Assembly: GCA_903914955.1 (NCBI GenBank)
Contig: CAIWRB010000242.1
Span: forward strand, 1-38,507
From: an uncultured Chloroflexota bacterium
GTDB lineage: Bacteria > Chloroflexota > Anaerolineae > Anaerolineales > Villigracilaceae
Direction: 5' to 3'
Length of the DNA: 38,507 nucleotides
Shown: positions 14,842 to 38,507 of the stretch, one piece after another
How the letters are laid out: the number at the start of each line of letters is the position of its first letter
Numbering within the stretch: position 1 is the first letter of the stretch
The notes under the pieces: generated by a model
The model's database searches: none
The model's input: only the letters and a program-made list of their open reading frames with translations
What the model was told of the DNA's origin: nothing
Position numbers and translations under genes: made by a program

Positions 14842-14886
14842 ATGGAACTTCAATTAGGAGCCTATTTTGGCCTTCAACCCTATTAA
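14842..14886 (+). CDS. Possible 14-codon leader peptide overlapping the mreB start
   Basis: ATG at 14842 opens a 14-residue frame (MELQLGAYFGLQPY) that ends with TAA at 14884-14886, 20 bases inside mreB in a different frame. The mreB ribosome-binding site AGGAG lies within it. It may be chance, or its translation may influence mreB initiation at the weak TTG. No clear ribosome-binding site precedes it. Confidence 0.2.
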   Translation: MELQLGAYFGLQPY

Positions 14887-15940: not shown

Positions 15941-16048
15941 TCACAAACCCGAATCATTTTTTATGCGACTTGCCAGGTATAGATATTTGGTTGAAATGAA
16001 TCTAGAGTTGATTGAGGTTTCCAGCGGTCCCGCTAGGGTTAATAAATT

Positions 16049-16885: not shown

Positions 16886-16895
16886 TTATAATTAC

Positions 16896-19585: not shown

Positions 19586-19646
19586 CTTTGTGTTTCCAGG
19601 TTTTGTCTTTTCAAGGCAATCATTACGATTCGCGGGTAGCGTCAGG

Positions 19647-19652
19647 TATAAT
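19647..19652 (+). promoter_or_regulatory. Possible -10 box before minC
   Basis: TATAAT lies 30 bases before the minC ATG in the 97-base gap after mrdA; TTACGA at 19623-19628 is a weak -35 at 18-base spacing. It would let minCDE be expressed separately from mreBCD. No obvious Shine-Dalgarno precedes minC. Confidence 0.4.
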
Positions 19653-19682
19653 TCGGTGCGATAAATTTTCTAATAAACTCTT

Positions 19683-20369
19683 ATGGAACAAATTACTTCA
19701 CTCGTTCAGATCAAAGGGATACGTGATGGGCTTCTTGCGACATTTACAGAAGCGCCGTGGGATGACCAGCGTATTGCCTTGCTTGCTCAAATTGATGAAC
19801 GACCGTCTTTTTTTCAAGGAGCCCGGCTTGCGATGGATGTTGGGTCTCAAGTGTTTAAAGTAAATGATCTAGTGGACCTGCGCGATCAGCTTTCAGAACG
19901 TAATGTCGTCATGTGGGCTGTCGTCAGCGAATCCCCGACTACTAATCAAACTTCACAGTTACTTGGGCTTGCAACCCGTATCTCGAAGCCGCGTCCGGAA
20001 GAACAAAGGCAATTTGCAAATACGATCTCAGATGATACAGCTTTATTTATCAATAAGACACTTCGTTCCGGCACACGGGTTGAATATCCTGGTCATGTTG
20101 TTGTGATGGGAGATGTTAATCCAGGCGCTGAGATCGTTGCGGAAGGCAATGTGATCGTCTGGGGACGGGTACGCGGTATGATCCACGCCGGAGCCAAGGG
20201 AAATCGTTCCTCATTCATTTGCGCACTTGATCTTTCTGCCAATCAACTTCGGATCGCCGATGAAATATCAGCAATGCTCAAGCCTCAGAAAGACTCCAAG
20301 CCTGAAATAGCCAGCATAAATAGTGAAGGACGTTTGCAAGCCGAACTCTGGCATTCGGGTAATTCATAA
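19683..20369 (+). CDS. minC: Septum-site inhibitor MinC
   Basis: 228 residues, typical. The N-terminal domain (1-105) begins with TSLVQIKGIRDGLLATF, and the C-terminal beta-helix (about 117-215) contains RSGTRVEYPGHVVVMGDVN and GNVIVWGRVRGMIHAGA, the MinD-binding signature. MinC blocks FtsZ assembly away from mid-cell. It is followed by minD after 13 bases. Confidence 0.95.
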   Translation: MEQITSLVQIKGIRDGLLATFTEAPWDDQRIALLAQIDERPSFFQGARLAMDVGSQVFKVNDLVDLRDQLSERNVVMWAVVSESPTTNQTSQLLGLATRISKPRPEEQRQFANTISDDTALFINKTLRSGTRVEYPGHVVVMGDVNPGAEIVAEGNVIVWGRVRGMIHAGAKGNRSSFICALDLSANQLRIADEISAMLKPQKDSKPEIASINSEGRLQAELWHSGNS

Positions 20370-20382
20370 TTAGGAATCAAAA

Positions 20383-21180
20383 ATGACAGCTCAAGTGATC
20401 ACAGTTACTTCCGGGAAAGGCGGCGTGGGTAAGACTACTGCCGTAGCCAATCTTGCCACCGCCCTTGCCGCAGATGGCAGGAAAGTTGTGTGTATTGATG
20501 GCGATATTGGCTTACGCAACCTGGATGTCATCCTGGGGCTTGAGAATCGTATTGTTTACGATATTGTTGATGTAATCGAAGGCCGTTGCAAACTTAAACA
20601 GGCAATGATCCGTGATAAACATTATCCTGATTTGTATTTGATCCCTGCCGCGCAAACACGCGACAAGAATGCGGTTTCCCCCTCAGACATGATACGCATC
20701 TGCAAGGAACTTCGACCGGATCATGATTTCGTGATCATTGATTCGCCGGCAGGTATTGAGCGCGGTTTTCGAAATTCCATCGCCGCCGCTGACCGCGTTT
20801 TGATAGTGACCAACCCCGAGGTCAGCGCGGTGCGAGACGCGGATCGCGTCGTGGGAATCCTCGAAGCGGAAGAGAAAGGGAATCCATCCCTAATTCTTAA
20901 TCGGTTGAATCCAGCGTTGGTCAGAAATAATGACATGCTCTCCGCGGAAGATGTTTTAGACTTACTTGGGATCCAATTGATCGGTGTTGTCCCTGAAGAC
21001 GAGGCAGTCATCATTGGCTCAAACCGGGGATCGCCGGTCGTAACCGATCCCAGAAGCCGAGCAGGGCAGGCTTTCCGCAACATCGCGAAGCGGCTTCAAG
21101 GGCAGGATGTTCCATTCATGGATCTTGAACAGCAAAATGCGATTTGGTCAGCGCTTCAACGGTTGACGGGGAGGAAGTAA
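20383..21180 (+). CDS. minD: Septum-site ATPase MinD
   Basis: 265 residues. The deviant Walker A GKGGVGKTT (9-17), switch DGDIGLRNLDVILGLENR (about 39-56) and Walker B FVIIDSPAG define MinD. The C-terminal SALQRLTGRK can form the amphipathic membrane-targeting helix. ATP-bound MinD recruits MinC to the membrane. AGGA lies 7 bases before the ATG; the stop overlaps the minE ATG as TAATG. Confidence 0.97.
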   Translation: MTAQVITVTSGKGGVGKTTAVANLATALAADGRKVVCIDGDIGLRNLDVILGLENRIVYDIVDVIEGRCKLKQAMIRDKHYPDLYLIPAAQTRDKNAVSPSDMIRICKELRPDHDFVIIDSPAGIERGFRNSIAAADRVLIVTNPEVSAVRDADRVVGILEAEEKGNPSLILNRLNPALVRNNDMLSAEDVLDLLGIQLIGVVPEDEAVIIGSNRGSPVVTDPRSRAGQAFRNIAKRLQGQDVPFMDLEQQNAIWSALQRLTGRK

Positions 21181-21434
21181 TGTTTAGTTTCTTTGGTAAG
21201 AAACGAAGCGCCGAAAATGCTAAGGATCGCTTGCAACTCGTTTTGGTACATGATCGCACAGACCTGACCCCTGCACAATTGGAGAATTTGAAGAATGATC
21301 TGCTTAAGGCGATCTCAAATTATATTGATATTGATCCTGAAGCGGTGCAGATCGGTCTGGAACGCGACGGTCGTTCTCAACGGCTTGTAGCTGATATTCC
21401 CTTACGAGGCGCTTCGCGTCACCGCACTGGTTGA
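21180..21434 (+). CDS. minE: MinD activator MinE
   Basis: 84 residues from ATG 21180. The N-terminal MFSFFGKKRSAENAKDRLQL is the membrane- and MinD-binding part, with the LVLVHDR beta strand, followed by the dimerisation domain containing YIDIDPEAVQIGLERDG. MinE stimulates MinD ATP hydrolysis and drives pole-to-pole oscillation. Its ATG shares a base with the minD stop; a longer upstream frame inside minD is rejected. Confidence 0.95.
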   Translation: MFSFFGKKRSAENAKDRLQLVLVHDRTDLTPAQLENLKNDLLKAISNYIDIDPEAVQIGLERDGRSQRLVADIPLRGASRHRTG

Positions 21435-21452
21435 TTTTATTTTCAATTGGAG

Positions 21453-21500
21453 ACACGGATCAACCCTCAATTCGATGATGGTTGCATCCGTGTTTTTATT
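21453..21500 (+). terminator. Intrinsic terminator-like hairpin between minE and rodA
   Basis: Arms 21453-21465 and 21480-21493 pair over 13 bp with one bulged C, loop of 14, followed by TTTTATT. The rodA ATG (21503) starts 3 bases after the T run, leaving no room for a ribosome-binding site. It should end most minCDE transcripts or act as an attenuator for rodA. Confidence 0.75.
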
Positions 21501-21502
21501 TC

Positions 21503-22603
21503 ATGACTCGTGGACTCTCCTGGCGTAACTTTGATTTTCTTTTATTAGGCGCGGTAGTGCTTGCCTCTTCCCTTGGTACAGCCATGATCCGTTCTGCTGT
21601 CGCGGGAAATGAGATCCTGCAGCCGCTGATCATCCGTCAGGTGTATTTTGCCTTGCTGGGTGGCTTTGTGATTTTTGTTGTGGCTTCCATTGATTATCGC
21701 TATTGGCTGGCTTTATATCGACCGATCTATTTTGGCATCATGATCTTTTTGGTATCGCTTTCCAGTTTTGGTCAGAGCGCATTTGGCGCACAACGCTGGT
21801 TTCAGGTGGGAGTCTTGTTTTTGCAGCCCACCGAGTTTGCAAAGATCGTCGCCATCATTGTCCTGGCGCGTTATTTTGATAAGACCCAATATCAACCCAA
21901 AAATTTGCGCTGGGCCTTTGGTGGTTTCCTGTGGGCCTTTGGGCTTATTATTTGGATTGTGCTCCAGCCCAATCTTAGCAATGTGATCGTGCTTGCTGTA
22001 ATTTTTTTCGCAATGCTCTGGATCAATGGCTTGGAGTTAAAACAGGTACTCTATCTCGGATTGGCTGGGATCGTGCTTGCCGGAATCGCCTTCCCTTTTC
22101 TTGAGCCGTATCAACGCCAGCGTGTATTTACTTTTCTGTCCCAGGATTCAACTGCTACTTACGGAGCAACTTATAATGTGCAACAAGCCTTGATCGCGAT
22201 CGGGTCCGGTGGTCTCTTTGGCAAGGGATATGGTCATGGCACGCAGACCCAATTGCGTTTTCTCAAGGTGCGTCACACCGATTTTATTTTTTCAGCTGTT
22301 TCAGAAGAGTTCGGCATGATCGGTGCGGTCGTAATTATTTTAACGTTGGCATTTATTGTGTGGCGTTGTATTCGCGCCGCACAGAAAGCGCGTGATGTTT
22401 CCGGATCAATGATGGCCTTTGGCGTGGCGATATTGATCTTCTTTCAGGGAGCGGTGAACATTGCCATGAACTTAAATATTGTTCCTGTTTCGGGGTTGCC
22501 ACTTCCATTTATAAGCTATGGCGGTAGCGGTCTCACTGCACTTATGCTTGGGATCGGACTCGTTGAAAGTGTTGTCATGCGTCATTCGCAAACTGAATTT
22601 TGA
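21503..22603 (+). CDS. rodA: RodA SEDS-family peptidoglycan glycosyltransferase
   Basis: 366 residues with about ten membrane segments. SEDS signatures include SFGQSAFGAQRWFQVG with the following PTEFAK (about 93-114), and near the C-terminus VSGLPLPFISYGGSGL. RodA polymerises lipid II on the outer membrane face with PBP2, encoded in the same cluster. I choose ATG 21503 because the upstream TTG at 21482 lies inside the terminator hairpin. FtsW is the alternative paralogue, but the neighbouring mre/mrdA genes favour RodA. Confidence 0.92.
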   Translation: MTRGLSWRNFDFLLLGAVVLASSLGTAMIRSAVAGNEILQPLIIRQVYFALLGGFVIFVVASIDYRYWLALYRPIYFGIMIFLVSLSSFGQSAFGAQRWFQVGVLFLQPTEFAKIVAIIVLARYFDKTQYQPKNLRWAFGGFLWAFGLIIWIVLQPNLSNVIVLAVIFFAMLWINGLELKQVLYLGLAGIVLAGIAFPFLEPYQRQRVFTFLSQDSTATYGATYNVQQALIAIGSGGLFGKGYGHGTQTQLRFLKVRHTDFIFSAVSEEFGMIGAVVIILTLAFIVWRCIRAAQKARDVSGSMMAFGVAILIFFQGAVNIAMNLNIVPVSGLPLPFISYGGSGLTALMLGIGLVESVVMRHSQTEF

Positions 22604-24423: not shown

Positions 24424-24495
24424 ATGTATTCCCGATGAATTAGCAGGGATTGTGCTTATATGCATGATTTTCATAATAGATGCACCATGCAAGTG

Positions 24496-24501
24496 TATAA
24501 T
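24496..24501 (+). promoter_or_regulatory. Possible -10 box of the multi-GAF kinase operon
   Basis: TATAAT lies 13 bases before the ATG at 24515, so the leader would be about 7 bases and without a Shine-Dalgarno. It follows a terminator, so a new promoter is expected here. Confidence 0.45.
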
Positions 24502-24514
24502 TCATCCAAATACC

Positions 24515-27115
24515 ATGCCTACCGATACCAGTATCGAAAATCAACTCAAAGATGCAGTGCAACTCTCTGACGCCAATTGGGCTGTTCTTGCCGAACGCGT
24601 TGGCAATGCCTGGCTGCTTCGCTCGATATATCATCTCAATAAGTTTTCACAGAATGAATTGATCACTTTGATGGGCAAGCCATCCATTGATACGTGGTTG
24701 TGCGGTGCACTGAGCGGTGGGCACAGCCGTTCAAGTTCCATCCCTGAAGAGAATAATCTCAATGCTGAACGTTTTTTCGCGTTTCCAATCCCTGGCACAT
24801 CCCAGATCATTTTGGCCGGAGCGGATAAACAAACTCCGATCGCCCAGCGTATTTGGAAATTAACTGCATCGCTTTTGTCAGGGCGTTCCACTGCTTCCAA
24901 TCAACTGTTTCTGCCTGACCTGCAATCTGGTCTAGCCTTCGACTTGCCCCTTGCTCTTGAGAAGGTTCTTGGCGCATTCGTGCAGGTCGTGACTTGTCAG
25001 GGGGGATGGCTGGCGATCCGTAGGGGAGAATCGCTTGATATTCAGGCTGAGTGGAATGTTCCAAAGGCCAAAGGGACATCCCTGTTGATTGACTCGAATC
25101 CTCTCCTCCGTCGGGTGAACCGTTCGTTGAAGGAAGTTCTCATCACTCGTGATCAGCCGAATTGGGACAATCTGCCATATGGTTCGCTCAAGTCCGGTAC
25201 GAATGTATGGATATGCCTGCCATTGGTGATTGGCCAGCGTTTAATTGGTGTTGTAACACTCTGGCGGCAGAAAGAATTCACCTCAACAGAATTAGGATTG
25301 CTTCATGAGTTGGTCGCGCGTATTCCGCCATCTGTCGAAGTGGTGGTCACATTCTCTGAAATGACTGCGCATCTTCGCCGTCTTGGTTTGCTGAATGATT
25401 TTGTTCTCACTGTTTCCTCTGCGCAAAATCTGGATCAGATCGCAAGACGTATGTTTGATTTACTTGCACGTGCTTTCAACACTGAATTGATTGCGCTTTT
25501 TCTCCGCTCAAGTGATGGGCGAATCCTGCGCGATTATCGCCTGTTTGAAGGCAAGATGAACGTTGTCAGCACTCCGCTCGCTGGGCACTCTGTCCAGCCG
25601 TATCTTTCAAAAGATGGGCGTGCACGGCTGATCGTGGATGCAGTTAATGAAGGTTTTGTTCCAATTCATAAAGAAGCGCGCTCCATGTTGATCGTTCCGC
25701 TTAAATATCGTGGCCAGGCAATTGGCGTATTGATCATTGAAAATTTGCGGGCCGAAGCCTTTACCCAATATGATGAGCATCTTATGGTAGTGATCACCAG
25801 CCATCTGGCAGGATTGATCGAATATACACGTCTGCGCGAAGAAGCCGAAGGACGGGCGCGTAGCCTGAGCCTGATCCACGAAGTGGTTCAGCAGGTGATT
25901 GGTTTGAACGATAAACAGGAAGTGGCGCATATTACCGCTGAATTGGTGGCGCAATATTTTAAGTATGAACTGGCTGCTATATTTCTATTTGACGAGGAAC
26001 ACAAATTCTTTATTCAAGGGATTGGTGGCACTCACGCCGATACAGTCAAACGTGCACTTGGTGGTGAGGAGTTTGTGGTGAGTGGAGGTGTTACAAGCCA
26101 TGTTTCTCAAACCGGTGCGAGCATAATGATCAACGACACCAATCTTGATGCTCTTTACAAACCGATCAAAGGCTGGGCGGCTCGTTCAGAAATTTGTGTT
26201 GCGTTGAAAGATGGGGATGCTATTTTAGGCATTATTGATGTCGAGAGCCGTGAACAGAATGCGTTTACGCATAATGACCTGATCGCGATGGAATCACTTG
26301 CGGGCATCCTTGCCTCGGTAATAACCAGCGCAAATCAATATCAGAAATTACAGGAATCCATCCGTCAATTGCGCTTGATCGAAGTTGAATTGAATGCGCG
26401 CATTGAAGCTCAGCGTTCGGCTGAAAACCGCCTCCTTCAAGCCGCTAAGCTTGCTGCGGTGGGTGAAATGGCCGCTGGTATTGCCCACGAATTGAATAAT
26501 CCTTTAACTGCGGTCACGGGTTTCTCTGAACTTATTTTGGATGAACTGCCTCAGGATTCTGTACATCGAAAGGACCTGGAAATGGTTTTGCATGAGGCGC
26601 GCCGCGCGGGTGACGTGGTTCGCCGTCTCCTTGATTTCTCGCGGCAAGGTGAACGAGTCCGCACCCAAGCCGACTTGAACGAAGTTGTCAGGGATGTAAT
26701 CGCGCTGACGAATCATCTAATCAAAACCAACGGAGTGACATTGTCGCTCGAATTGGACCAAACTCTTCCATGGGTTTTCATTGATAGCAACCAAATGAAA
26801 CAGGTACTTCTAAATTTGATTCATAATGCGCTACAAGCCATGCCAAATGGCGGCGATCTGCAGATTAATACGGGACTCGTCCAGCGTGATGATCGTAATT
26901 GGGCTGTTATGGAAGTCAGAGATAACGGCGTAGGAATTACACAAGCTGATCAAAACCGAATTTTCGAACCGTTCTTTACTACCAGAGGAGATCGCGGTGG
27001 AACCGGGTTGGGACTATCGGTCACGTTTGGTATCGTCACCGATCATGGCGGCATGATCGAAATTTCAAGTAAGCCGGAAAATGGCTCCATCTTTGCAGTC
27101 TGGCTGCCGATTTAA
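24515..27115 (+). CDS. Multi-GAF sensor histidine kinase
   Basis: 866 residues from ATG 24515. No membrane segment or signal is seen, so it is cytoplasmic. Three GAF-like domains can be traced at about 140-275, 290-440 and 452-612, then a coiled coil and a HisKA domain with the phosphorylated H658 in IAHELNNP, and an HATPase domain (N-box near 770, DNGVGI near 803, glycine-rich lid after it). GAF domains usually bind small ligands or chromophores; none can be assigned here. It is followed after 5 bases by a receiver-GAF-kinase gene, suggesting a phosphorelay. The upstream in-frame start at 24452 is rejected because the promoter-like TATAAT would lie inside it. Confidence 0.88.
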   Translation: MPTDTSIENQLKDAVQLSDANWAVLAERVGNAWLLRSIYHLNKFSQNELITLMGKPSIDTWLCGALSGGHSRSSSIPEENNLNAERFFAFPIPGTSQIILAGADKQTPIAQRIWKLTASLLSGRSTASNQLFLPDLQSGLAFDLPLALEKVLGAFVQVVTCQGGWLAIRRGESLDIQAEWNVPKAKGTSLLIDSNPLLRRVNRSLKEVLITRDQPNWDNLPYGSLKSGTNVWICLPLVIGQRLIGVVTLWRQKEFTSTELGLLHELVARIPPSVEVVVTFSEMTAHLRRLGLLNDFVLTVSSAQNLDQIARRMFDLLARAFNTELIALFLRSSDGRILRDYRLFEGKMNVVSTPLAGHSVQPYLSKDGRARLIVDAVNEGFVPIHKEARSMLIVPLKYRGQAIGVLIIENLRAEAFTQYDEHLMVVITSHLAGLIEYTRLREEAEGRARSLSLIHEVVQQVIGLNDKQEVAHITAELVAQYFKYELAAIFLFDEEHKFFIQGIGGTHADTVKRALGGEEFVVSGGVTSHVSQTGASIMINDTNLDALYKPIKGWAARSEICVALKDGDAILGIIDVESREQNAFTHNDLIAMESLAGILASVITSANQYQKLQESIRQLRLIEVELNARIEAQRSAENRLLQAAKLAAVGEMAAGIAHELNNPLTAVTGFSELILDELPQDSVHRKDLEMVLHEARRAGDVVRRLLDFSRQGERVRTQADLNEVVRDVIALTNHLIKTNGVTLSLELDQTLPWVFIDSNQMKQVLLNLIHNALQAMPNGGDLQINTGLVQRDDRNWAVMEVRDNGVGITQADQNRIFEPFFTTRGDRGGTGLGLSVTFGIVTDHGGMIEISSKPENGSIFAVWLPI

Positions 27116-27120
27116 TTATT

Positions 27121-28701
27121 ATGGAATCCCCTTTAATATTCGTGGTCGATGACGAGCCCGGTATTGCGCTGCTGTGCAAACGATTATTAACCCGCGCAGG
27201 ATTTCAAGTTGAAGTCCAAACCGATCCGCGACAAGCCATCGATTACCTCAAGGAAAATACGATCGATCTTTTGCTGGTTGATATTCGCATGCCTGGCGTG
27301 GATGGATTCGAAGTTATTCAACATGCTCAACGTTTGCAACCAGATGCGGCTATTCTCATCATGACCGGTCATGGTACCGTCGAGACGGCCATTCGTGCAC
27401 TCAGGCAGGGAGTTGACGGTCTTCTCCTTAAACCGTTTAGTCAGGGCAGCGAGTTGATTGACGCGATTAAATTAGCTATTGCAGATAGCCAGCAAAAGCA
27501 TGATGCCGCCCGTGTTAAGGCTTTACGCCCTCTTTTTTCAGTCACCGAATCTTTGCTTTCAGAAACACGACGCGAGCCGTTGCTTGGACTGATCACCAGT
27601 GCCATTTGCGAACATTTGCAATGCATGCACTCAGCTTGTTATCAGCAAAATAATGAGACGAAAAAATATTCGTTGTTGATCTCGCGCGGGAAAACCTTAT
27701 CACCAGAAATCCAGGATCTGATCGTAAATGCTGGAGAATCTGCCGCGCCATTGTTGATCAACGTCAACGGGCCAGGCGATTCGAAACAAAAATCGATTCT
27801 CTCGAATCTTGGGCTTGGTACTGCAATCCTGGTGCCGATTCTCCGCCCAAACTTACACATGGTATTATTCGCGGCCCGCGACAGGAATCTCTCACCATTT
27901 CACGAATCTGATTTGGAATTATTCCAGATCCTTGCGCGGCAGGCCGCTGTTGCCCTAGAAAATGCGCGCTTGTACGCCGAGCAAATGGATTACATTCGCA
28001 AGGTGGAGGATTCTCAAAAAGCTTTGCTTCAAGCAGAAAAGATGGCAGCGGCCGGCAGATTAAGTGCCTCCATTGCGCATGAGGTTAACAATCCATTGCA
28101 GGCTGTGCAAAATTGCCTTCATCTTGCAGGGCGTGAAGATCTGCCCGCAGAAAAACGCCAGGAATATTTTGATCTCGCCCGCACAGAACTTGAGCGATTA
28201 ATTCTTACCGTCCGCCGCATGTTGGATTTTTACCGGCCAGGCGCAGCAGCCCCCGAAAAAATTGACCTCGCTGAAATGCTGCAATATATTTTGAACTTAA
28301 TGTCAAAACAACTTTCAGAGTCCAACGTAAAAGTAAGTTTAGATATCATAGGAGAGGTTATGCCCATCGTAGCTGTTGGGAGTCAGCTCCAGCAGGTTTT
28401 TATCAATCTGATCCTGAATGCGGCTGATGCCATGCCTGCCGGCGGAAGTCTTCAAGTAAGCGCCTGTTCATTTGAAGAAGGTGTGGAGTTATTGTTTCAA
28501 GATCAAGGAAGAGGAATTCCAAAAGAACAGCAATCCAATATTTTCGAGCCCTTCTTCAGTACTAAGGATGGCGGAACAGGCTTGGGACTTACTGTAAGTT
28601 ACAATATAATTACTGCGCATGGAGGCGTTTTGGAGCTTCTTCCTAAACGGGGTCCTGGTGCCTGTTTCCGAATATTCTTGCCGCAAGGAGGAAAACAATG
28701 A
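27121..28701 (+). CDS. Hybrid protein: receiver, GAF and histidine kinase
   Basis: 526 residues. An N-terminal receiver (5-120) has the acidic pair D10/D11, the phosphoacceptor D54, a threonine in MTGHG and a lysine in LLLKPF. A GAF domain (about 145-290), HisKA with H320 in IAHEVNNP and HATPase (about 415-525) follow. This is a kinase whose activity may be set by phosphorylation of its own receiver. It sits between a multi-GAF kinase (5 bases upstream) and an OmpR-type regulator (four-base ATGA overlap), so all three are cotranscribed and probably form one pathway. Confidence 0.9.
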   Translation: MESPLIFVVDDEPGIALLCKRLLTRAGFQVEVQTDPRQAIDYLKENTIDLLLVDIRMPGVDGFEVIQHAQRLQPDAAILIMTGHGTVETAIRALRQGVDGLLLKPFSQGSELIDAIKLAIADSQQKHDAARVKALRPLFSVTESLLSETRREPLLGLITSAICEHLQCMHSACYQQNNETKKYSLLISRGKTLSPEIQDLIVNAGESAAPLLINVNGPGDSKQKSILSNLGLGTAILVPILRPNLHMVLFAARDRNLSPFHESDLELFQILARQAAVALENARLYAEQMDYIRKVEDSQKALLQAEKMAAAGRLSASIAHEVNNPLQAVQNCLHLAGREDLPAEKRQEYFDLARTELERLILTVRRMLDFYRPGAAAPEKIDLAEMLQYILNLMSKQLSESNVKVSLDIIGEVMPIVAVGSQLQQVFINLILNAADAMPAGGSLQVSACSFEEGVELLFQDQGRGIPKEQQSNIFEPFFSTKDGGTGLGLTVSYNIITAHGGVLELLPKRGPGACFRIFLPQGGKQ

Positions 28702-29429
28702 AACCTAACATTCTAGTGGTCGATGACGAAACCGTTGCGCGGCAATCCCTCTCAGACATTCTAAAATTGGAGGGGTTTGCAGTAACATCTGCGCCCAATG
28801 GGCAGGCAGCGGTTGAATATGTCCGCACGCATTCTGTAGATGTAATGATTGTGGACCTGAGAATGCCGGGTATGGACGGATTGGAAGTGGTCCAGGTTTT
28901 GAATCAACTCTCACCTGAAACCGAGGTGATCCTGCTCACGGCCTTTGGTTCCACCGAAACAGCCATTCAAGCTTTGCGTTTGCGCATCCATGATTATTTG
29001 TTAAAACCTTCCTCCCCGGCGCAGATCATTTCCAGCGTAAAAAAAGCACTGACGCATCGTGCTGCAAAAACACAACTGCGCAATACAGACGCTGATAATG
29101 TGGATGAGTCCATCGAGGTGGTAACTCTGAAGGATGGTACAGAGATTGATCTCTCACGCCGTCAGATAAAATATAAAAACAAGCTGGAGCATCTCACCCC
29201 GGCTGAAGGAAGGTTGCTTCGAATATTGATAAAGAACGAAGGCAAGGTTTTCTCGCATCGTGAATTGGTGTTGTTGGTTCAGGGATATGATACTTCCCAA
29301 CGTGAGGCGCCGGAGATTCTGCGTCCACTGGTAAGTCGTTTGCGACATAAACTTGAACAATTCCCATTGTTATCTGAGCAGGTAGTAAGTGTACGAGGGA
29401 CTGGTTATTTGTACGAAGGAAATAAATGA
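28698..29429 (+). CDS. Response regulator with OmpR-type winged-helix output
   Basis: 243 residues. The receiver (4-122) has D9/D10, phosphoacceptor D53, threonine in LLTAFGS and lysine in LLKPSS. The C-terminal winged-helix (about 145-240) begins LKDGTEIDLS and ends in VVSVRGTGYLY, typical of OmpR/PhoB DNA-binding domains. It is the likely transcriptional output of the two kinases before it. Its target genes cannot be inferred. Confidence 0.92.
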   Translation: MKPNILVVDDETVARQSLSDILKLEGFAVTSAPNGQAAVEYVRTHSVDVMIVDLRMPGMDGLEVVQVLNQLSPETEVILLTAFGSTETAIQALRLRIHDYLLKPSSPAQIISSVKKALTHRAAKTQLRNTDADNVDESIEVVTLKDGTEIDLSRRQIKYKNKLEHLTPAEGRLLRILIKNEGKVFSHRELVLLVQGYDTSQREAPEILRPLVSRLRHKLEQFPLLSEQVVSVRGTGYLYEGNK

Positions 29430-29475: not shown

Positions 29476-30423
29476 TTATTCGTAGGGACCGAAAATGTCT
29501 TTGGGCAAATCCGGTGCGCGGATCCATGAAAGCCAACCGGTGGTTTTGCTGTGGTTCGGAGCTGGGATATTTTCAAACATCACGAGAAGCAGGCTCAAGC
29601 CGAGTCCAATCGCGCCCAGCCATTGCAGCAGAGACAGGTTTTCGCCAAGCCAAATGTGACTAAAGAGGATCGCGATCAAAAGCTCGGCGAGTCCCAATAT
29701 GGCTGTTTGCATTCCGCCGATTTTTTTTACTCCCATAAATAAGGCAATCCGCGAGAAGACGGTTACAAAGGTCAATCCAAAGATTGGAAGCCAGGGCGTG
29801 CTGGTAACCGGCCAGGCACGGTCGAATATTAAATAAGCGGGTACTACCACTGCGCTCATGGAAAGCAGGGTATAGAGAGCAACGGTTGGCGCTGGAACTT
29901 CGTAGAGTACACGCTGGTTGATTGGCAAATGCATGGCGTACAGCAAAGCTGCTCCGATCATCAACAATACCCCAGTAGGGTCGGTTAAATTATCTTGAAT
30001 ACTCGTGAGAAGTAATACCGCAACCGTTGCAAGGAAGATACGGAAAAATGTAAGGCGGGTTGGGGGTTGATGATCTAGGATTAGCCAGAGTGCTACGAAA
30101 AATGGATAAAGCGAGTAAAGCAATTGCCCAACGCTTGCATGGAGTCTTGCAAGCGCAAGGTAGTAAAGCAGTGAGCCAAGTCCGTTGATTACGCCGGCCA
30201 GAATACAGCCGATCAGTCCTACGGGGAAGATGTAGAGATATTTTCGATAGAAAATGGCGATAACCAAAAATAATACGCAGGCCGCAATTCCGGTGCGTAA
30301 GGCCACAACCGCAAATGGTGAAAAGCCTTGCGTAATGGCGAGTTTTCCAAAAACGGGTGCGAAACCAAGAAAAAATGCTGCACTGAAAGCAGCCATAATT
30401 CCACCAGCTTGTTTGTTTGGCAA
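29476..30423 (-). CDS. EamA/DMT family transporter
   Basis: 315 residues with ten hydrophobic segments in two EamA repeats (about 9-140 and 150-285). The family includes exporters of amino acids such as threonine/homoserine (RhtA) and cysteine, and nucleotide-sugar or metabolite carriers. It is the last gene of the run, 38 bases after the threonine synthase-receiver gene, so an amino-acid role is attractive but inferred. The start is TTG at 30423; an ATG at 30396 with a weak GGTGGA is a possible alternative that would leave almost no residues before the first membrane segment. Confidence 0.88.
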   Translation of the reverse strand: MPNKQAGGIMAAFSAAFFLGFAPVFGKLAITQGFSPFAVVALRTGIAACVLFLVIAIFYRKYLYIFPVGLIGCILAGVINGLGSLLYYLALARLHASVGQLLYSLYPFFVALWLILDHQPPTRLTFFRIFLATVAVLLLTSIQDNLTDPTGVLLMIGAALLYAMHLPINQRVLYEVPAPTVALYTLLSMSAVVVPAYLIFDRAWPVTSTPWLPIFGLTFVTVFSRIALFMGVKKIGGMQTAILGLAELLIAILFSHIWLGENLSLLQWLGAIGLGLSLLLVMFENIPAPNHSKTTGWLSWIRAPDLPKDIFGPYE

Positions 30424-30461: not shown

Positions 30462-32117
30462 TCACTCTATTAATGCTTTCACCTCTTCAAGAAATTCGTC
30501 ATTTAGAAAATCCCCTTTTTGCATAAGGGATTGGATCTGACCGCCAAGCCGGTTTTTCTCATCCGTTGTGAGTTCTTTTGCAGTCGCAACGATGACTGGA
30601 ATGGTTGCAGTTTCCTGTTTTGCGCGCAGCAATTCTATGACCGTGAAGCCGTCCATTTCCGGCATCATTAGGTCGAGGACGACAAGATCCGGCAATTCGC
30701 GTTGGATTAACTCAAGACCTTCCCTGCCGTTTGTTGCTTCGAGGATGGTGAAATTCCCTTGTGATTGTAATATGCGGCGGATGAGTCGGCGTGCTTCGTC
30801 GGTATCTTCCACAATAACAATTTTTGGGAATCGTTCAGGTGCAACTTGTGTCAAGGCTGCGAGTAAGCCTTCCTGTGGAGTCTCGTCTGGCGATGGGAAT
30901 TTCACATCATGTGACCAATTTTCGCCGAGAATGCTCGGGTCTGCCGACATGGTGTGGCCGGTGCAGTTTACTACAATGGTGTCGCTTGGTTTGATTATAC
31001 CCGCGCGAATTAGTTTGAATAACCCGGCGAAGGCAACGCCGGCGGCAGGCTCCGCTGATATCCCTTCCATCTTTGCCAAAACGTGCATTGCGCGGAATGC
31101 CTCCTCATCGCTTACACTTTCGAAGGAACCGTTTGTGCTGTTCACGTAGTCGCGTAGGAATTCGTATGCACGGCCAGGATCACCGGTTGCGAGCGTTTCG
31201 ATGCGTGTTTTTGGCGATGTGACTGGTTCCACCTTATCCAGTCCTTTTTTCCAACTATTCACCATTGGCGCGCAGCCTTCGGCTTGAATGGGGGCGAATG
31301 ATGGAATGTGGTTTACCCATCCCATTTGCTTCATTTCGCGGAAACCCTTGTAGACTCCGAGAGGACCCATTCCACCGCTGATCGCTTGCACATACCAATC
31401 GGGTGTTTTCCAGAGAGTTCCGTCAGTTGGTGTCCCTTGAACGGATGTTAGTTGTTCTGCGATTTCGAATGCGATAGTCTTCATTGCCTCAATTGAGGTG
31501 ATGGTACGAGCGCCCATGTCTTGATACAAGTTGCGTTGGCGGGCAAATTCAGAAGCGACCTGTTTACACTGATCGTATGAACCGGTGATCTTGATCACCT
31601 GACTTCCGTACAGAGCGATCTCGCGCATTTTTACGGCAGGTACCAGGCTTGTGACGAAAGCCCATAATTTCATCCCTGCGCGTGAAGCGTAGGCAGAATA
31701 TGAAATTGCCACATTTCCTGTTGAAGCCGCCACTATTTCGGTAATTCCCGCTTCTTTCAAAGCGGCGATCGTAACCGAAGCCTGTCGATCTTTGAAAGAA
31801 GAGGTCGGTCCCTGACGTTCATCTTTTATATATATATTGGGGCAACCCAGCATCAGCCCCAAATTAATCGCTCTTATGAGGGGCGTCCCTCCTTCGCCAA
31901 GTGATAAGCTTACGTTGGGTTCGCGTATTGGGAGCAGCTCATGATAGCGCCAGAGACTGGAAGAGCGATTTACCAGTTGAGATGGTAGTGTTTTACCAAT
32001 AATCTCATAATCGTACTCAGCTTCACGCCATTGACTGTTGCACTTTGGGCATGTCGTGGAGGCTGGGTGATAAGACGCGTTGTGACCGCAATCAAGGCAT
32101 TTGATGGTAAATGACAC
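30462..32117 (-). CDS. Threonine synthase-like PLP enzyme fused to a response-regulator receiver domain
   Basis: 551 residues. An N-terminal zinc-ribbon (C7, C10, C23, C26) precedes a fold-type II PLP domain (about 65-405): GEGGTPL (74-80), SSFKDR with the PLP lysine K109, ASTGNVA (131-137) and SGGMGPLG (247-254). This matches threonine synthase, which makes threonine from O-phosphohomoserine. After a linker (about 406-430) comes a complete receiver (432-551): D438, phosphoacceptor D482 in LDLMMPEMDG, T512 and K534. The frame is continuous through the join. The start is GTG at 32117 with GGAG about 10 bases upstream, 14 bases after the hybrid kinase gene. A different PLP lyase or deaminase of this fold is the alternative. 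Confidence 0.88.
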   Translation of the reverse strand: MSFTIKCLDCGHNASYHPASTTCPKCNSQWREAEYDYEIIGKTLPSQLVNRSSSLWRYHELLPIREPNVSLSLGEGGTPLIRAINLGLMLGCPNIYIKDERQGPTSSFKDRQASVTIAALKEAGITEIVAASTGNVAISYSAYASRAGMKLWAFVTSLVPAVKMREIALYGSQVIKITGSYDQCKQVASEFARQRNLYQDMGARTITSIEAMKTIAFEIAEQLTSVQGTPTDGTLWKTPDWYVQAISGGMGPLGVYKGFREMKQMGWVNHIPSFAPIQAEGCAPMVNSWKKGLDKVEPVTSPKTRIETLATGDPGRAYEFLRDYVNSTNGSFESVSDEEAFRAMHVLAKMEGISAEPAAGVAFAGLFKLIRAGIIKPSDTIVVNCTGHTMSADPSILGENWSHDVKFPSPDETPQEGLLAALTQVAPERFPKIVIVEDTDEARRLIRRILQSQGNFTILEATNGREGLELIQRELPDLVVLDLMMPEMDGFTVIELLRAKQETATIPVIVATAKELTTDEKNRLGGQIQSLMQKGDFLNDEFLEEVKALIE

Positions 32118-32131
32118 GATATAACAAGCTC

Positions 32132-35041
32132 CTAATGAACTTTTATTTGTATCCGTTCCAAGGCACTGGCGAGATCATCGTCAAGGATCGGCTTTACCAG
32201 ATAATCTATTGCGCCAAGTTCGTATCCTTTTTGGATATCTTCAATGATGCTGCAAATTATTACGGGAATATCATGTGTAATCGGGTCATTTTTTAAAATA
32301 TTCAAAACCTTCCAGCCGTCAGTTCCGGGCATCAAAATATCCAGGGTTACCGCAAAAGGCATAAACTGTTTAACGTGCTCCAAGGCCTTTGACGGGTCTG
32401 TGCATGGGATTACTTGATATCCGCGTGGTTTTAAATATCGATCATAAAGTTCGATCACATTCGAATCGCCATCGATCGAGAGGATTATCTTGTTAGTGTT
32501 CGGCCGATGATCGCCCCCGATTTCATTTCGGAAGAGTGGCAGTGTAAAAGAGAAGATGCTTCCTTTTCCGATTTCACTCTCAACCCAAATCCTTCCCCCA
32601 TGCATGGTGATCAATTGCTGGCAAATTGAAAGCCCAAGCCCTGTCCCGCCTGTTTTTCGCGTGGGCGAGTCGTCCACTTGTGAGAATGCCTGGAAGAGTT
32701 TTTCCTGATCCTGTTTTGAAATGCCCGGGCCAGTATCTCTTACGCTGACTTTTATTTCATTACGGCCTGTTGGACCGGCCCTGAGGCCGACTTCAACGGT
32801 GATATCGCCTTCGTCGGTGAATTTGGACGCGTTGGAAAGAAGGTTAATCATTACCTGACGGGCCCGGATCGCATCTGCGCGGACTGTTGGCAGATTTGGC
32901 TCAATGACACGTTTCATTTGTATCGGACGGCCTTTTACCAGACCGCTCATGGTGGAAAGCACGCTGTTGACCACATCTGTCATGTTCACTTCATCGAAGG
33001 TCAACTCCATTTTGCCAGCCTCGATCTTGGCGAGATCAAGGATGTCATTGATGAGCCCAAGCAGGTGCTGGCCTGAAGTGTAGATGGCGGTTAGGTCCTG
33101 TTGTTGTAATTCGGTCACAGGCCCGTCAATGCCTTTTATGATAACGCGCGAAAAACCGATAATGGAATTAAGCGGTGTGCGCAATTCATGGCTCATATTT
33201 GCGAGGAATTGACTCTTTAATCGGTCGATCTCGCGCATGTCCATCACGGCTTGTTGAGAGAGCTCAAAGGAACGGGCATTATCAATTGCGACGGCCACCT
33301 GGTCTGCCAGCGTTTGAAGAACTACGATCTCATCATCTGTAAAAGAATTTTTTGTTTTAGCTTGAACATCAAGGACGCCAATCACCCTGCTTCCGATCCT
33401 TAATGGGATGGCGGCTTCTGCCTGTGTTTCAGGGAGCAGGGGGTTATGTTTATGCAATGGCGCGCGTGAGACATTATTTATGATCACAGCATAGCCTTCA
33501 AGCGCGACCTTTCCTACAATAGAATCTAAATTTACTGGTAATGTGTGTTTGTTTTTTTTCATCTCCGCGCCGGCTTCGCCCGTTGCTTCGCGAAGAGCAA
33601 CGTTAAAGCCGGTCTCTTCAACGATAAAAATAGCGGCATGATAAAACCCAAATTTTTCATTGACTAGATTTACAGTCCTTGTGAAAATTGTGCTCAAATC
33701 AAGCGTAGATGTAACAAGGCGGCCGATCTCAGCAGAAGCTGATAAATATGTATTCCGTCTTTGCAGTTCTTCCTCAACATTTTTGCGGTCGGTTATATCA
33801 TGGTGAACCGCTAGAAATCCAAGAACGTTTCGATTCTTATCCAGAATCGGGCTGTTCGTACCAGCGATGTGTATGAACCTTCCGTCTTTTGTTTTATTAA
33901 CCCATTCATTGGTGGCGGTCTTCTTGGATAGCAGGGTGTTCCAAAAAGACTTGTATTGTTCCCGCGACACCGAGTCAGATTTGAGAATGCGTGGACTTTG
34001 GCCGATAACTTCACTTGGTTTGAAACCGTATATTGTTTCGAATGCCGAGTTGGCAAATATAATATTGCCGCTGGTGTCTGTCATAAAAACTGCGTCACCG
34101 GAGGTTTCGATACCCAGCTTAAATCTTGTTAGATCTTCCTCTGCACGTAGGCGGCCAATAGCAGTTGAGATTGGCGCAAGTGCTGCCTCCAGCAGGGAAA
34201 TTTGATTTTGGTTCAGGTATGCCTTTTTATCCATCATATCCACACCCAGAGTCGCAATCACTTCATTGTTATTGGTGATCGGGAAAATGGCTGTGTAATT
34301 GATTCCAAGACGACGGAATTCCTCGCGGAGGGTGGGTGGGTTGACGGGATTATTGGAAGAATCCTCTAAAATATAAGGCTTGCGGGTAGCGACCAATGTC
34401 TGGGTGGCAGGGTTTTCTTTAAGAGGAATTCTTAGACCTACTGCGCTCGCTGCATTTACAATTTTGGAATGATCGGCAACCACGGTAAAGCCTAGTTTAT
34501 CTTCATCGAGTAATGCGATTGCACCGCGTGCAACGGGGAAGCCCTCTACAATTTCACGGATGACGACTCGCAGTGCCTCTTCCATGGTTGTTGAAATGGT
34601 CAACGAGTTGACAACGCGGTTAATTAATGCCAGTTCATTGGCGCGTTCTTTTGATTCCTGGTATAAGCGCGCGTTTTCAAGCGCGAGTGAGAGTTGATCA
34701 GTAACCTGTTTTATAAGCAATTCTTCGTCAGATGTCCATTCGCGAGTCTGTGTATCATCCATAACGCGTAAAGTTGACCAGTCCTGGTCGCCGGTTTGGA
34801 TATCGACAGAATAAGATGAAGCATTGGGCAGTACGTTTTTCTGTGAGGCGCTGCGAGTTCGGCGAACCGGCTTAAGTGAAGCGACCTGATCGAGGTTTTG
34901 CTGGGCTGATTCCGAGTTGGTCTGAAGCTCCTCATCTTTGCTAACTTTTGGAACACTCCTCGGTACGGAGACAATTCCTTCAGGCTGAATATCCTTAAAG
35001 AGTTTGTCAAGTCGTTTGTTTATTTTTGGTTTCTTTGGCAT
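32132..35041 (-). CDS. Hybrid sensor histidine kinase (GAF, PAS, GAF, HisKA, HATPase, receiver) with basic N-tail
   Basis: 969 residues, no membrane segment. Residues 1-90 are low-complexity and begin with the basic MPKKPKINKR. A truncated GAF end lies at about 95-130, then GAF (131-300), PAS/PAC (305-430, TDTSGNIIFANSAFETIYG), GAF (430-597), HisKA with H618 in MSHELRTP, HATPase (about 722-840) and a C-terminal receiver (853-969) with phosphoacceptor D901 and K950. Its ATG lies 35 bases inside parA, with GGAG 10 bases upstream, so expression is tied to ParA. It could pass phosphate to the receiver fused to the PLP enzyme encoded next. Confidence 0.92.
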   Translation of the reverse strand: MPKKPKINKRLDKLFKDIQPEGIVSVPRSVPKVSKDEELQTNSESAQQNLDQVASLKPVRRTRSASQKNVLPNASSYSVDIQTGDQDWSTLRVMDDTQTREWTSDEELLIKQVTDQLSLALENARLYQESKERANELALINRVVNSLTISTTMEEALRVVIREIVEGFPVARGAIALLDEDKLGFTVVADHSKIVNAASAVGLRIPLKENPATQTLVATRKPYILEDSSNNPVNPPTLREEFRRLGINYTAIFPITNNNEVIATLGVDMMDKKAYLNQNQISLLEAALAPISTAIGRLRAEEDLTRFKLGIETSGDAVFMTDTSGNIIFANSAFETIYGFKPSEVIGQSPRILKSDSVSREQYKSFWNTLLSKKTATNEWVNKTKDGRFIHIAGTNSPILDKNRNVLGFLAVHHDITDRKNVEEELQRRNTYLSASAEIGRLVTSTLDLSTIFTRTVNLVNEKFGFYHAAIFIVEETGFNVALREATGEAGAEMKKNKHTLPVNLDSIVGKVALEGYAVIINNVSRAPLHKHNPLLPETQAEAAIPLRIGSRVIGVLDVQAKTKNSFTDDEIVVLQTLADQVAVAIDNARSFELSQQAVMDMREIDRLKSQFLANMSHELRTPLNSIIGFSRVIIKGIDGPVTELQQQDLTAIYTSGQHLLGLINDILDLAKIEAGKMELTFDEVNMTDVVNSVLSTMSGLVKGRPIQMKRVIEPNLPTVRADAIRARQVMINLLSNASKFTDEGDITVEVGLRAGPTGRNEIKVSVRDTGPGISKQDQEKLFQAFSQVDDSPTRKTGGTGLGLSICQQLITMHGGRIWVESEIGKGSIFSFTLPLFRNEIGGDHRPNTNKIILSIDGDSNVIELYDRYLKPRGYQVIPCTDPSKALEHVKQFMPFAVTLDILMPGTDGWKVLNILKNDPITHDIPVIICSIIEDIQKGYELGAIDYLVKPILDDDLASALERIQIKVH

Positions 35042-35792
35042 ATTCCATTAACTCCTGGGCGAGGACGCGATATTGCGTGGAACTGCGCGCGTTTGGTTTA
35101 TATAGTGTAATGGGCATTCCGGCGATGGGGCTTTCGCGTAATTTAGTATCTACTTCTATGATTGTATTAAAAACGCCTTGGCCGAAAGTGGTGCGGAGTT
35201 GCTCGCTGATATTACGATGTGTGCGATTCCTTTTATCCAACATTGTGACCAGGATGCGATACGCCAGGGATGGATTGTCTTCTTCTCGAATTTTGCGAAT
35301 GAGAGTCATCATATTACGCAGAGCGTACGCGGAAAAATATTCCGCCTGGGTAGGGATAAGCAGCAGGTCGGCTGCAGTGAGCGCATTTTTTGTAACAGCG
35401 CCAAGTACGGGCGGACAATCAAGGATGATGAAATCGTATGCCAAGTTTGCGTTTGCGATGGCTTGGCGCAGAATGGTGGTGTGATTCGTTCGCATCGGAA
35501 GAAATTGTTCGGATGTTTCAATGCGCGAACTTGATGGGATGAGATCGAGATGTGCCACGTCAGTTTTTCGGCAGGTGCTTTGTATTGAAGCGTTATCAAG
35601 CAGAACATCACAAGATGTCAATCTGCTTTCACCAGGTTCGAAGCCGAGTGATAAGGTTAAGTTGGCTTGCGCATCCAGATCGATCAGTAAGACACTCTGC
35701 CCATGATCTACAAGGGCTGCGCCGAGGGATATTGTGGTGGTAGTCTTTGCCACACCACCTTTTTCATTTGATACAGCAATAGTTATTGGCAT
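35007..35792 (-). CDS. ParA/MinD-type ATPase
   Basis: 261 residues. The deviant Walker A KGGVAKTTT (11-19, signature K11, P-loop K16), Walker A' DLDAQANLT (about 38-46) and Walker B FIILDCPP define ParA. Such ATPases bind DNA nonspecifically as ATP dimers and position chromosomes, plasmids, chemoreceptor clusters or carboxysomes. No parB or parS-like repeat is found beside it; instead it lies between a receptor gene (10 bases) and a hybrid kinase (35-base overlap), pointing to protein-complex positioning rather than replicon segregation. Confidence 0.92.
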   Translation of the reverse strand: MPITIAVSNEKGGVAKTTTTISLGAALVDHGQSVLLIDLDAQANLTLSLGFEPGESRLTSCDVLLDNASIQSTCRKTDVAHLDLIPSSSRIETSEQFLPMRTNHTTILRQAIANANLAYDFIILDCPPVLGAVTKNALTAADLLLIPTQAEYFSAYALRNMMTLIRKIREEDNPSLAYRILVTMLDKRNRTHRNISEQLRTTFGQGVFNTIIEVDTKLRESPIAGMPITLYKPNARSSTQYRVLAQELMEYAKETKNKQTT

Positions 35793-35802
35793 GATTATCC
35801 TG

Positions 35803-38507
35803 TTACTTATTTGGTTGAGTTTTAGTCTTTTGCGGAGTGATCTCGATCCGCGAGGCGCCTAGAACGCGTTGTAATTCAGTCATTGCGGTTTGTATCATTT
35901 CCTGCGGGTTATTCGTGCTGCGGATCTTGTTGGTTATATCAGAAACGATGCGTTCACGCGTGGCGCGCGAAGTTGTTTCTTCGAAAAGACGGGCGTTTTC
36001 AGCGGATAGCGCAACGCGTTCGGCCACAGCTATGATCAGATCCATTTGATCCCTGCTTACCCGTTCAGCTTTTGGAATCTGCACAGATAACGTGCCGATC
36101 GTCTCGCCGCGTAAGATGACCGGTACGGATATTTCCTGCCGCTGGTTATTATCAGGCGCATTTTGATTTTTTACGATTTCAATCTGATTCTTTGATTCGG
36201 CCTCATTTGTTTGTTGGCGAAAAACTTCACTCTTATACATGTCGCTATTTTGAAATTTGATCACGACTTCCGACCCAGGCATGGCTCTTCCTAATTCCTC
36301 CACTGCTGTCTGCAAAATATTACTCATATTGATGGATGCGCCGATCTTCCCTGTAACTTCGCTGATCGTCTGTTCTTTGATCGCTTGACGCTGAGATTCC
36401 TGGATCAGACGGGCATTTTCAAGTGCAAGCGAGAGACGTTCTGCGATCGCTTCGACAAGATTGATCTCGTCACTTGTCCATTGGCGGTCAATGTTTGGGG
36501 CTTTAATATTCATAGCGCCGATAACTTGTCCACGTAATTTTATTGGAACAATGATGGTGGGTTCCTGCGCGCCTCGATTTGAGTTGATGGCTAACATTGT
36601 CCCTTGATTCATAGCTTGTGTAATCTCGTCCGTTTCCACAGGTGTTGTCAAATTTCTGCCGCCGATCATGTTTTGATGATATCCGATCAGTTCTTCCTCG
36701 CGAGTGAATGTAAGCCAACCTTCGTGAACATTTTGTTGATAAAGCGCCTGTGCTTCATTGAGTGCCTGCTGCGTTTGAGAGAATAAGCGCGCATTTTCGA
36801 GGGCAATGGAAATTTGGTCAGCCAAAATACTGAGCGTGTTAGCATCGTTTTGAGTAAAGGCGCCGGGTTGATCACTTTGAACATCGAGCACGCCTACGAT
36901 CTGGTCGCGTAATTTGAGGGGCAATGCCATTTCAGAGCGGGTGGTTGGCAGGTCGGGATTATTGAAAAATGCTGGATCCAATCCAACGTCAAGGGCGATG
37001 CGCGGGATGCCATATTTTGCGACAAAGCCCACAATTCCGCTTGTACCAACCTCAAGCCTGTGTTTGCGTGCCAGCATTATTTTTCCGCCTTTGCTGTTTG
37101 CGGCTTGCAGGACCGCAAATTGTTTTGTTTCGTTGATAAGGAAAATTCCGGAGTGATAATAGCCGAAGCGTTCGCTCACTAAACGGGTGATCAATGTGAA
37201 AAGTATTTTAAGCCTTTGTTCACTGGCAATGATTCTTGATATCTCGCCGATCGCTTGGAGTTTATTGGCTCGGATTTCGCTTTGCTCACGCGCAACCTCA
37301 AGGTCAATTGTGCGTTCTGAAACGCGTGTTTCCAGGCTATTTACTGTTTGGTTTAACTCTTCCGCCATGCGATTAAAGGAATCCGAGAGCGTACCGATCT
37401 CATCTTCTGTTGTTGCTAACGCTCGGGCGGTGAGGTCTCCAGCCGTTATTTTTTCAGCGACTTTGGCAAGTGATCTAAGAGGTGATGTAAGAAATTGTGA
37501 TGCTAAAAAGCCAGTCCCAATACTAAAAATAATCAATCCCATAGAGATCAAGATATTCGTTCTGTTTTGATCTGATATCGGTTTTAAGTACACGTTCGTA
37601 GATTGGTGGATTATTGCGACCCAGGGTTGTGTCTTAAGCAATTCTCCGGTGTTAATGGTGTTAGTTGCAAGAGTATCTGAATAAGCTTCAAAAAAAGATT
37701 GCTGTTGTAAATTGTTGACGCCTGCAACAAGCTGATCATTTATTCCGTTTAGCGCATCGTCTCTCGGGCCCGAAAGCAGGCTGCCTTCCAATTGCAAACC
37801 TTTTAATTCCAAGTCATTAAAATTATTGAAAGATTTTAATAATTCATCACGGCCTCCGGTGTAACCGACCCGTAAATAAGTTCTTGAATCTGCCAGCAAA
37901 ATTACGGCATCTGAATTTCCGGTATCAATGGATCGAAGTATGGATTGTAAAACAATTGCGTAATATTCCACTCGCAAGACCCCAAGGGTAGTCCCGTTTT
38001 TGCCCGTAATTGGCGAACTAAAGTAGATAAACGCCTCGTGGTCATGAAAAACCACATTCGAGGCGAAAGGTAACCCCGTCTCAAGTACACGTTTAAAATA
38101 AGTCTGTTCACTTTCATTTTGACCATTGTGATCCTCGAAAGTGTCGAGGATGTTTACTCCGTTTCCATTTAACACAGCGATGGAATGAATGAATATTGGG
38201 TCTTTGCGTAGCAGGGAGAGTAGCACAAGGCGGGCGTTTTTTTCTTCGATACTATTGGCGCGTAGTTGAGATGATAGGTTTAAAAAGGAAACCAAAGGAA
38301 GCTGTTTTGAATCTGCGCGGATGGCATCCAGATGTGTGGTCATAAAGCCGTCAATATTACTTACGACGATTTTTGCGATCGTGATTAATTGGGCTTTGTT
38401 TTGGATCTGAAGGTTTTGAGATGAGGATCTGGAATTGAACCATCCAAGAGCAATCAGAGGGATAATTGTGACAAAGAAAAATGCAATGATGATCTTTGTT
38501 CGAAGCA
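35803..38507 (-). CDS. Kinase-less transmembrane receptor: Cache, HAMP and three GAF domains (partial, N-terminus beyond right edge)
   Basis: The frame continues upstream of the ATG at 38343 with no stop to the window edge, adding at least 54 residues that include a membrane segment (IIIAFFFVTIIPLIALGWF), so the true start lies outside. Numbering from the edge: TM1 (5-22), an external double-Cache-like sensor (about 25-310), TM2 (318-338), HAMP (338-392), a coiled coil, then GAF domains at about 418-568, 588-698 and 718-845. It ends without HisKA, HATPase or a methyl-accepting domain. It probably senses an external ligand and acts through the adjacent ParA and hybrid kinase. Confidence 0.85.
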   Translation of the reverse strand, partial: LRTKIIIAFFFVTIIPLIALGWFNSRSSSQNLQIQNKAQLITIAKIVVSNIDGFMTTHLDAIRADSKQLPLVSFLNLSSQLRANSIEEKNARLVLLSLLRKDPIFIHSIAVLNGNGVNILDTFEDHNGQNESEQTYFKRVLETGLPFASNVVFHDHEAFIYFSSPITGKNGTTLGVLRVEYYAIVLQSILRSIDTGNSDAVILLADSRTYLRVGYTGGRDELLKSFNNFNDLELKGLQLEGSLLSGPRDDALNGINDQLVAGVNNLQQQSFFEAYSDTLATNTINTGELLKTQPWVAIIHQSTNVYLKPISDQNRTNILISMGLIIFSIGTGFLASQFLTSPLRSLAKVAEKITAGDLTARALATTEDEIGTLSDSFNRMAEELNQTVNSLETRVSERTIDLEVAREQSEIRANKLQAIGEISRIIASEQRLKILFTLITRLVSERFGYYHSGIFLINETKQFAVLQAANSKGGKIMLARKHRLEVGTSGIVGFVAKYGIPRIALDVGLDPAFFNNPDLPTTRSEMALPLKLRDQIVGVLDVQSDQPGAFTQNDANTLSILADQISIALENARLFSQTQQALNEAQALYQQNVHEGWLTFTREEELIGYHQNMIGGRNLTTPVETDEITQAMNQGTMLAINSNRGAQEPTIIVPIKLRGQVIGAMNIKAPNIDRQWTSDEINLVEAIAERLSLALENARLIQESQRQAIKEQTISEVTGKIGASINMSNILQTAVEELGRAMPGSEVVIKFQNSDMYKSEVFRQQTNEAESKNQIEIVKNQNAPDNNQRQEISVPVILRGETIGTLSVQIPKAERVSRDQMDLIIAVAERVALSAENARLFEETTSRATRERIVSDITNKIRSTNNPQEMIQTAMTELQRVLGASRIEITPQKTKTQPNK

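Follow-up and report, generated by a model that had tools for sequence, protein, structure and literature searches.

Does a receiver domain attached to a threonine synthase-like enzyme place an amino-acid reaction under the control of a sensor kinase? This question is raised by a gene in a 38,507-nucleotide stretch of DNA from an uncultured Chloroflexota bacterium (contig CAIWRB010000242.1, assembly GCA_903914955.1), the whole of which is called the window below. The gene (30462..32117, minus strand) encodes a protein of 551 residues in which, judging from frame calls and full-length homologues, a zinc ribbon and an enzyme of the PALP family (pyridoxal phosphate (PLP) fold type II) are joined by a linker to a receiver. 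The reading we favour, and hold to be rather probable, is that the fusion protein is a response regulator with a PLP enzyme as its output, phosphorylated by the kinase encoded next to it and acting on a non-canonical substrate.

One reading frame encodes an enzyme and a receiver

The gene is a single open frame that starts with GTG at 32117 on the minus strand, and the plus-strand reading of 30462-32117 contains many stops. In order along the minus strand, the protein has the zinc-ribbon cysteines C7, C10, C23 and C26 (32040..32099), a PALP domain at residues 72-387 (30957..31904; Pfam E 9e-66) with the PLP lysine K109 in the motif SSFKDR (31791-31793), and a receiver at residues 433-551 (30465..30821; Pfam Response_reg at 433-524, E 7.9e-20) with the phospho-acceptor D482 (30672-30674). 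Both Pfam matches were above cut-off, which confirmed the uninterrupted frame of zinc-ribbon PLP enzyme and receiver described in an earlier note on this DNA, and K109, D438, D482, T512 and K534 were all found at the positions given there. The phosphorylation site of the receiver is intact (E437/D438, D482, T512 and K534). A ribosome-binding-like AGGAG, read from the sequence (32129..32133, minus strand), lies 11 bases before the GTG and overlaps the stop codon (32132-32134) of the kinase gene upstream.

Among the best 60 of 236 matches to solved sequences, the nearest were threonine synthases for the enzyme part and receivers for the C-terminal part, and no chain covered enzyme and receiver together. 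Threonine synthases also ranked first when an AlphaFold model of the fusion was searched with Foldseek.

The conservation of both parts was examined in an alignment of 74 homologues (duplicates removed), comprising 55 proteins of the window's type (type A, window included) and 19 of a second type (type B). The four zinc cysteines, K109, the STGN loop, D438, D482 and K534 were invariant in 74/74, position 437 was E or D and position 512 was T or S throughout. The acidic pair, aspartate, threonine or serine, and lysine that characterise a response-regulator receiver are thus present in every member, and by this residue signature the domain is a receiver of that kind. Among 14 members of the genus the median ratio of nonsynonymous to synonymous substitution rates (dN/dS) was about 0.03 for both the enzyme (61/91 pairs usable) and the receiver (62/91), a rough estimate since dS was near saturation and the remaining pairs gave no usable dS.

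A tree was built from 41 enzyme domains (21 chosen fused, 11 unfused, 4 canonical threonine synthases, 4 threonine-synthase-like proteins and 1 outgroup). The fused domains formed one clade (support 100/100) on a long stem and the canonical threonine synthases were separate (99/100). Several residues, e.g. R101, Q112, T156, R165, K185 and N384, are invariant in the fused clade and rare in the other enzymes.

Distribution of the fusion

The fusion is not an assembly error, because full-length copies recur in relatives and in draws from the class and the phylum, among them G020 and G025, each a genome in one contig (G and L numbers are our labels for genomes and loci). Absence from close relatives, which the earlier note had named as the mark of a misassembly, was not what we found: a full-length fusion was present in 51/61 genomes searched as relatives, with type A in 49 genomes and type B, which is about 48% identical to type A, in 32. 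The combination of PALP and Response_reg also recurs across Chloroflexota, as 96/298 genomes drawn from the class and 42/400 drawn from the phylum were carriers (the three draws overlap and carrier counts were tallied by hand). Seven of the 42 phylum-draw carriers lie outside the class, six in one family and one in another. Within the genus, type A was found in 34/37 genomes; type A is absent from G001 and G019, and the copy in G016 is split over two frames and was counted as absent.

Unfused relatives among the matches listed were at most 37% identical, and genomes with partial matches above 37% (e.g. G325, G162, G081, G190, G108, G317, G307, G034 and G052) were counted as absent if nothing fuller was found. 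Three partial matches were inspected: those in G034 and G108 stop at contig ends and that in G052 carries a deletion. Through this deletion (L219:1897-3474) the EamA transporter sequence that follows has become an in-frame continuation of the first part of a type-A enzyme (residues 1-228), and in the resulting frame of 525 residues Pfam detects half a PALP plus EamA. The best 80 of 593 matches in a contig scan, whose enzyme patterns were narrow enough to miss distant fusions, contained 10 full-length fusions, all from Chloroflexota, and 70 receiver-end matches. Matches were found in 56 plasmid records, none covering more than 80% of the query.

In some longer members the enzyme is followed by two receivers (PALP-REC-REC; L189:7490-9649, L182:8138-10213 and L177:8336-10414). 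Two candidates for kinase and enzyme in one chain were rejected: in G154 (open frame 1784) the extension at L182 is arginine-rich and resembles an out-of-frame reading, and in G096 (open frame 1157) locus L183 has a separate kinase gene.

The substrate of the enzyme part

The window protein scored below both threonine-synthase cut-offs, 159.4 against 167.1 for thrC (TIGR00260) and 256.3 against 303 for PRK08197. In alignment with the threonine synthase of Thermus thermophilus, K109 and residues 132-135 of the window protein correspond to K61 and residues 84-87 (STGN), and K61, S84-T85-G86-N87 and T317 are kept. The T. thermophilus residues N154, S155, R160, N188 and R242, which we take to bind the phosphate of the substrate phosphohomoserine, are replaced by M, G, S, G and A in the window protein; all five are present in the ThrC of the same genome. 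This canonical thrC (295 bits, cut-off 167.1) lies beside thrB (246.8, cut-off 168.25) on contig C123, and the genome also holds two further zinc-ribbon paralogues. A strong canonical ThrC (at least 280 bits to the thrC model) was found in 44/51 fusion carriers.

Because a canonical thrC stands beside thrB, the scores are below cut-off and the presumed phosphate-binding residues are replaced, the enzyme probably runs its PLP reaction on an amino-acid substrate other than canonical O-phosphohomoserine. For the same reasons the earlier note's suggestion of threonine as the output is not supported, although the fusion may yet make threonine.

The adjacent kinase and the class of the receiver

The gene upstream of the fusion (32132..35041, minus strand) encodes by Pfam a cytosolic-looking hybrid histidine kinase (HK) of 969 residues, GAF-PAS-GAF-HisKA-HATPase-REC1, and ends 14 bases before the fusion gene. 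In 51/54 further type-A loci the gene immediately before the fusion encodes a kinase, at a distance of no more than 400 bases and in 46 cases of no more than 75; the exceptions are L123, where the contig begins at the gene, L142, and L051, where a kinase-like gene sits between fusion and EamA. The same order was found in 19/19 type-B loci, although L164 shows only a piece of 132 residues at the contig start, and in 15/20 distant loci, not in L182, L187, L188, L192 (where a drawing rule left out the fusion frame) and L197. By gene order, therefore, the fusion has a predicted partner histidine kinase. A gene for a REC-HisKA-HATPase kinase also lies downstream in L191 (5944-7251) and several others of the distant loci, placing the fusion between two kinase genes.

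The receiver's best matches beyond the fusion family were second receivers of HK-REC1-REC2 hybrid kinases. A receiver tree (219 domains, 125 columns, with support only from the Shimodaira-Hasegawa-like approximate likelihood ratio test) separated a REC2 set (support 95) with 48 + 19 fusion receivers, 35 REC2 domains of neighbouring kinases and 24/27 REC2 domains of other loci from a REC1 set (support 97) with 41 REC1 domains of neighbouring kinases and 22/25 REC1 domains of other loci. By this tree, built on few columns, the fusion receiver is one of the REC2 class, the terminal receivers of such kinases. The fusion shows a hybrid-kinase receiver of the terminal class carried by an enzyme whose gene follows that of the kinase.

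The kinases' own receivers were scanned in 44 type-A loci (the seven loci below L042 not included). Two receivers were present in 36/44, one in six loci (L122, L146, L147, L148, L150 and L152), and none was visible in L047 and L157. REC2 is missing from the kinases of the window and L122, and in the window's REC1 the second acidic residue is replaced by G; among 41 REC1 domains of neighbouring kinases five, the window's included, lack this residue and in two the phospho-acceptor position is occupied by E. The absence of REC2 from the window kinase had suggested that the enzyme merely acquired its receiver from the kinase next to it. This was rejected given that 36/44 kinases keep two receivers, and for the same reason the missing REC2 is more likely a loss. 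No receiver was seen in type-B kinases in the 18/18 loci displayed, nor by Pfam in L170 and L184, and the type-B order is that of an ordinary sensor kinase paired with a response regulator.

Of the earlier note's interpretation, the pairing of the receiver-carrying PLP enzyme with the adjacent kinase is supported, being conserved in two paralogous lineages, in one of which the kinases show no receiver; threonine as the output is not supported.

Proposed control and alternative explanations

We propose that the GAF/PAS histidine kinase from the upstream gene would phosphorylate D482, either directly or via the kinase's own receivers, and that the receiver, once phosphorylated, would alter how the threonine-synthase-like enzyme joined to it works or assembles. 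This enzyme would retain PLP chemistry, its substrate probably not being canonical O-phosphohomoserine. The next gene (29476..30423, minus strand), 38 bases downstream of the fusion, encodes by Pfam an EamA-family transporter of 315 residues that probably moves the enzyme's substrate or product. EamA follows in 52/54 further type-A loci, the exceptions being L034 (contig end) and L142. Because the receiver is built onto the enzyme and the gene usually lies right behind a sensor-kinase gene, the amino-acid reaction is probably controlled via signal transduction and not by gene activity alone.

A bolder version, which we entertain only tentatively and think unlikely in full, is a widespread two-component class with amino-acid chemistry as its direct output, in which a PLP enzyme acting on a new substrate is switched by a sensor kinase in the absence of any transcription step, the product being exported via the co-encoded EamA, possibly as a signal outside the cell or as an overflow metabolite.

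Several observations weigh against the proposed control. The AlphaFold model (11 sequences; predicted local distance difference test score 63.6) is too weak to define a domain interface. The two receivers that most type-A kinases carry are possibly the real kinase targets, and orphan fusion copies with no neighbouring kinase occur in L142, L187 and L197. In 7/51 carriers (G002, G023, G034, G043, G049, G054 and G056) there was no ThrC match of at least 280 bits, and G043, G049 and G056 are 94-97% complete; G049 has no protein above the thrC cut-off. Finally, seven type-B proteins among the matches listed just exceed this cut-off.

The carriers with no strong ThrC and the seven type-B proteins would fit the view of the earlier note, namely that the fusion is a genuine isoenzyme of threonine synthase, controlled by phosphorylation, which supplements the housekeeping ThrC or takes its place. 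This view is also favoured by the nearest solved sequences and folds, which are threonine synthases, by retention of the catalytic lysine, STGN and T386, and by a PRK08197-type threonine-synthase-like gene close by in 5/19 type-B loci. Set against this are the scores of the window protein below cut-off, the changed positions of N154, S155, R160, N188 and R242 (given their presumed roles), the canonical thrC adjoining thrB in the same genome and the strong ThrC in most carriers, and we consider an isoenzyme unlikely, if the best of the alternatives.

Less probable still, and in our judgement improbable, is that the PALP part serves as an amino-acid sensor that tunes phosphate uptake or transfer by the receiver in a relay, the real outputs being other proteins, e.g. 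the stand-alone receiver that the gene after the fusion encodes in many type-B loci. Such a relay would agree with a C-terminal, REC2-type receiver, as in hybrid kinases, with the receiver-like small gene that follows the fusion in 13/19 type-B loci and with the REC-HisKA kinase gene that follows in some type-A-like loci; however, the invariance of catalytic lysine and STGN together with the low dN/dS points to a working enzyme, and the adjoining EamA suits metabolism. That the receiver is a dimerisation or scaffolding module only, unphosphorylated in the cell, is very improbable. Against it, its phosphorylation residues are kept in all 74 homologues, although kinase receivers are altered or missing in some members; for it, the linker (399-431) is less conserved in type A (mean identity 59%) than either domain (75% and 71%).

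If phosphorylation control of the PLP enzyme by the adjacent kinase is true, an amino-acid enzyme would be switched post-translationally, through phosphorylation of an aspartate, across a large group of bacteria. Kinase, enzyme-receiver and transporter would form a compact system in which signal, phosphotransfer and catalytic output are all measurable in vitro, and the fusion would point to an uncharacterised PLP subfamily with a substrate to be found.

Surrounding genes

Upstream of the kinase lie, by Pfam, a ParA-like ATPase gene (35007..35792, minus strand) that overlaps the kinase frame by 35 bases and, heading the same-strand run, a gene for a HAMP-GAF protein (35803..38343, minus strand; frame calls and Pfam). 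From HAMP-GAF through ParA, the hybrid kinase and the fusion to EamA, the distances between successive genes along the minus strand are 10, -35, 14 and 38 bases. ParA was found within 12 kb upstream in 31/54 further type-A loci, many of which are cut short. At L142:8294-9958, in G049, a genome with two type-A fusions, neither kinase nor EamA lies alongside.

On the plus strand of the window, 24452-29429 holds a convergent group of a GAF kinase, a receiver-kinase and an OmpR-type regulator that is kept in many relatives, and the run at 14867-22603 holds, by eye, look-alikes of MreB, MreC, MreD, a penicillin-binding protein, MinC, MinD and RodA.

Comparison with known systems

The fusion resembles threonine synthase (TIGR00260, PRK08197) in its PRK08197-type zinc ribbon, PALP fold, PLP lysine and STGN loop, but differs in scoring under both cut-offs, in the changed presumed phosphate residues, in forming a long-stemmed clade of its own and in the added receiver. 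Cysteate synthase is a PALP relative of threonine synthase with a different substrate. Its solved chain 9k3c was found for the fusion enzyme by sequence and by fold, and the fusion scores 120.4 bits to its model (TIGR03844), far under the cut-off of 324.9; cysteate synthase has no receiver.

Receivers attached to standard metabolic enzymes are already noted in section 14 of PMC5847659, so that the earlier note's statement that receivers normally drive DNA-binding, cyclic di-GMP or kinase outputs was too narrow. Receivers on metabolic enzymes are thus known as a kind, and for the PALP-receiver fusion itself no report was found in the literature searched (titles and abstract openings), a mention in Galperin 2006/2010 being possible. 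Like the enzymatic-output response regulators of that section, the fusion has a receiver on a metabolic enzyme and a sensor kinase expected to control it; unlike those described there, it combines a PALP enzyme with a C-terminal receiver and occurs in many families of the class and two outside it. With the HK-REC1-REC2 hybrid kinases the fusion shares the receiver, which groups with their second, C-terminal receivers, but in the fusion this class of receiver sits on an enzyme from the next gene.
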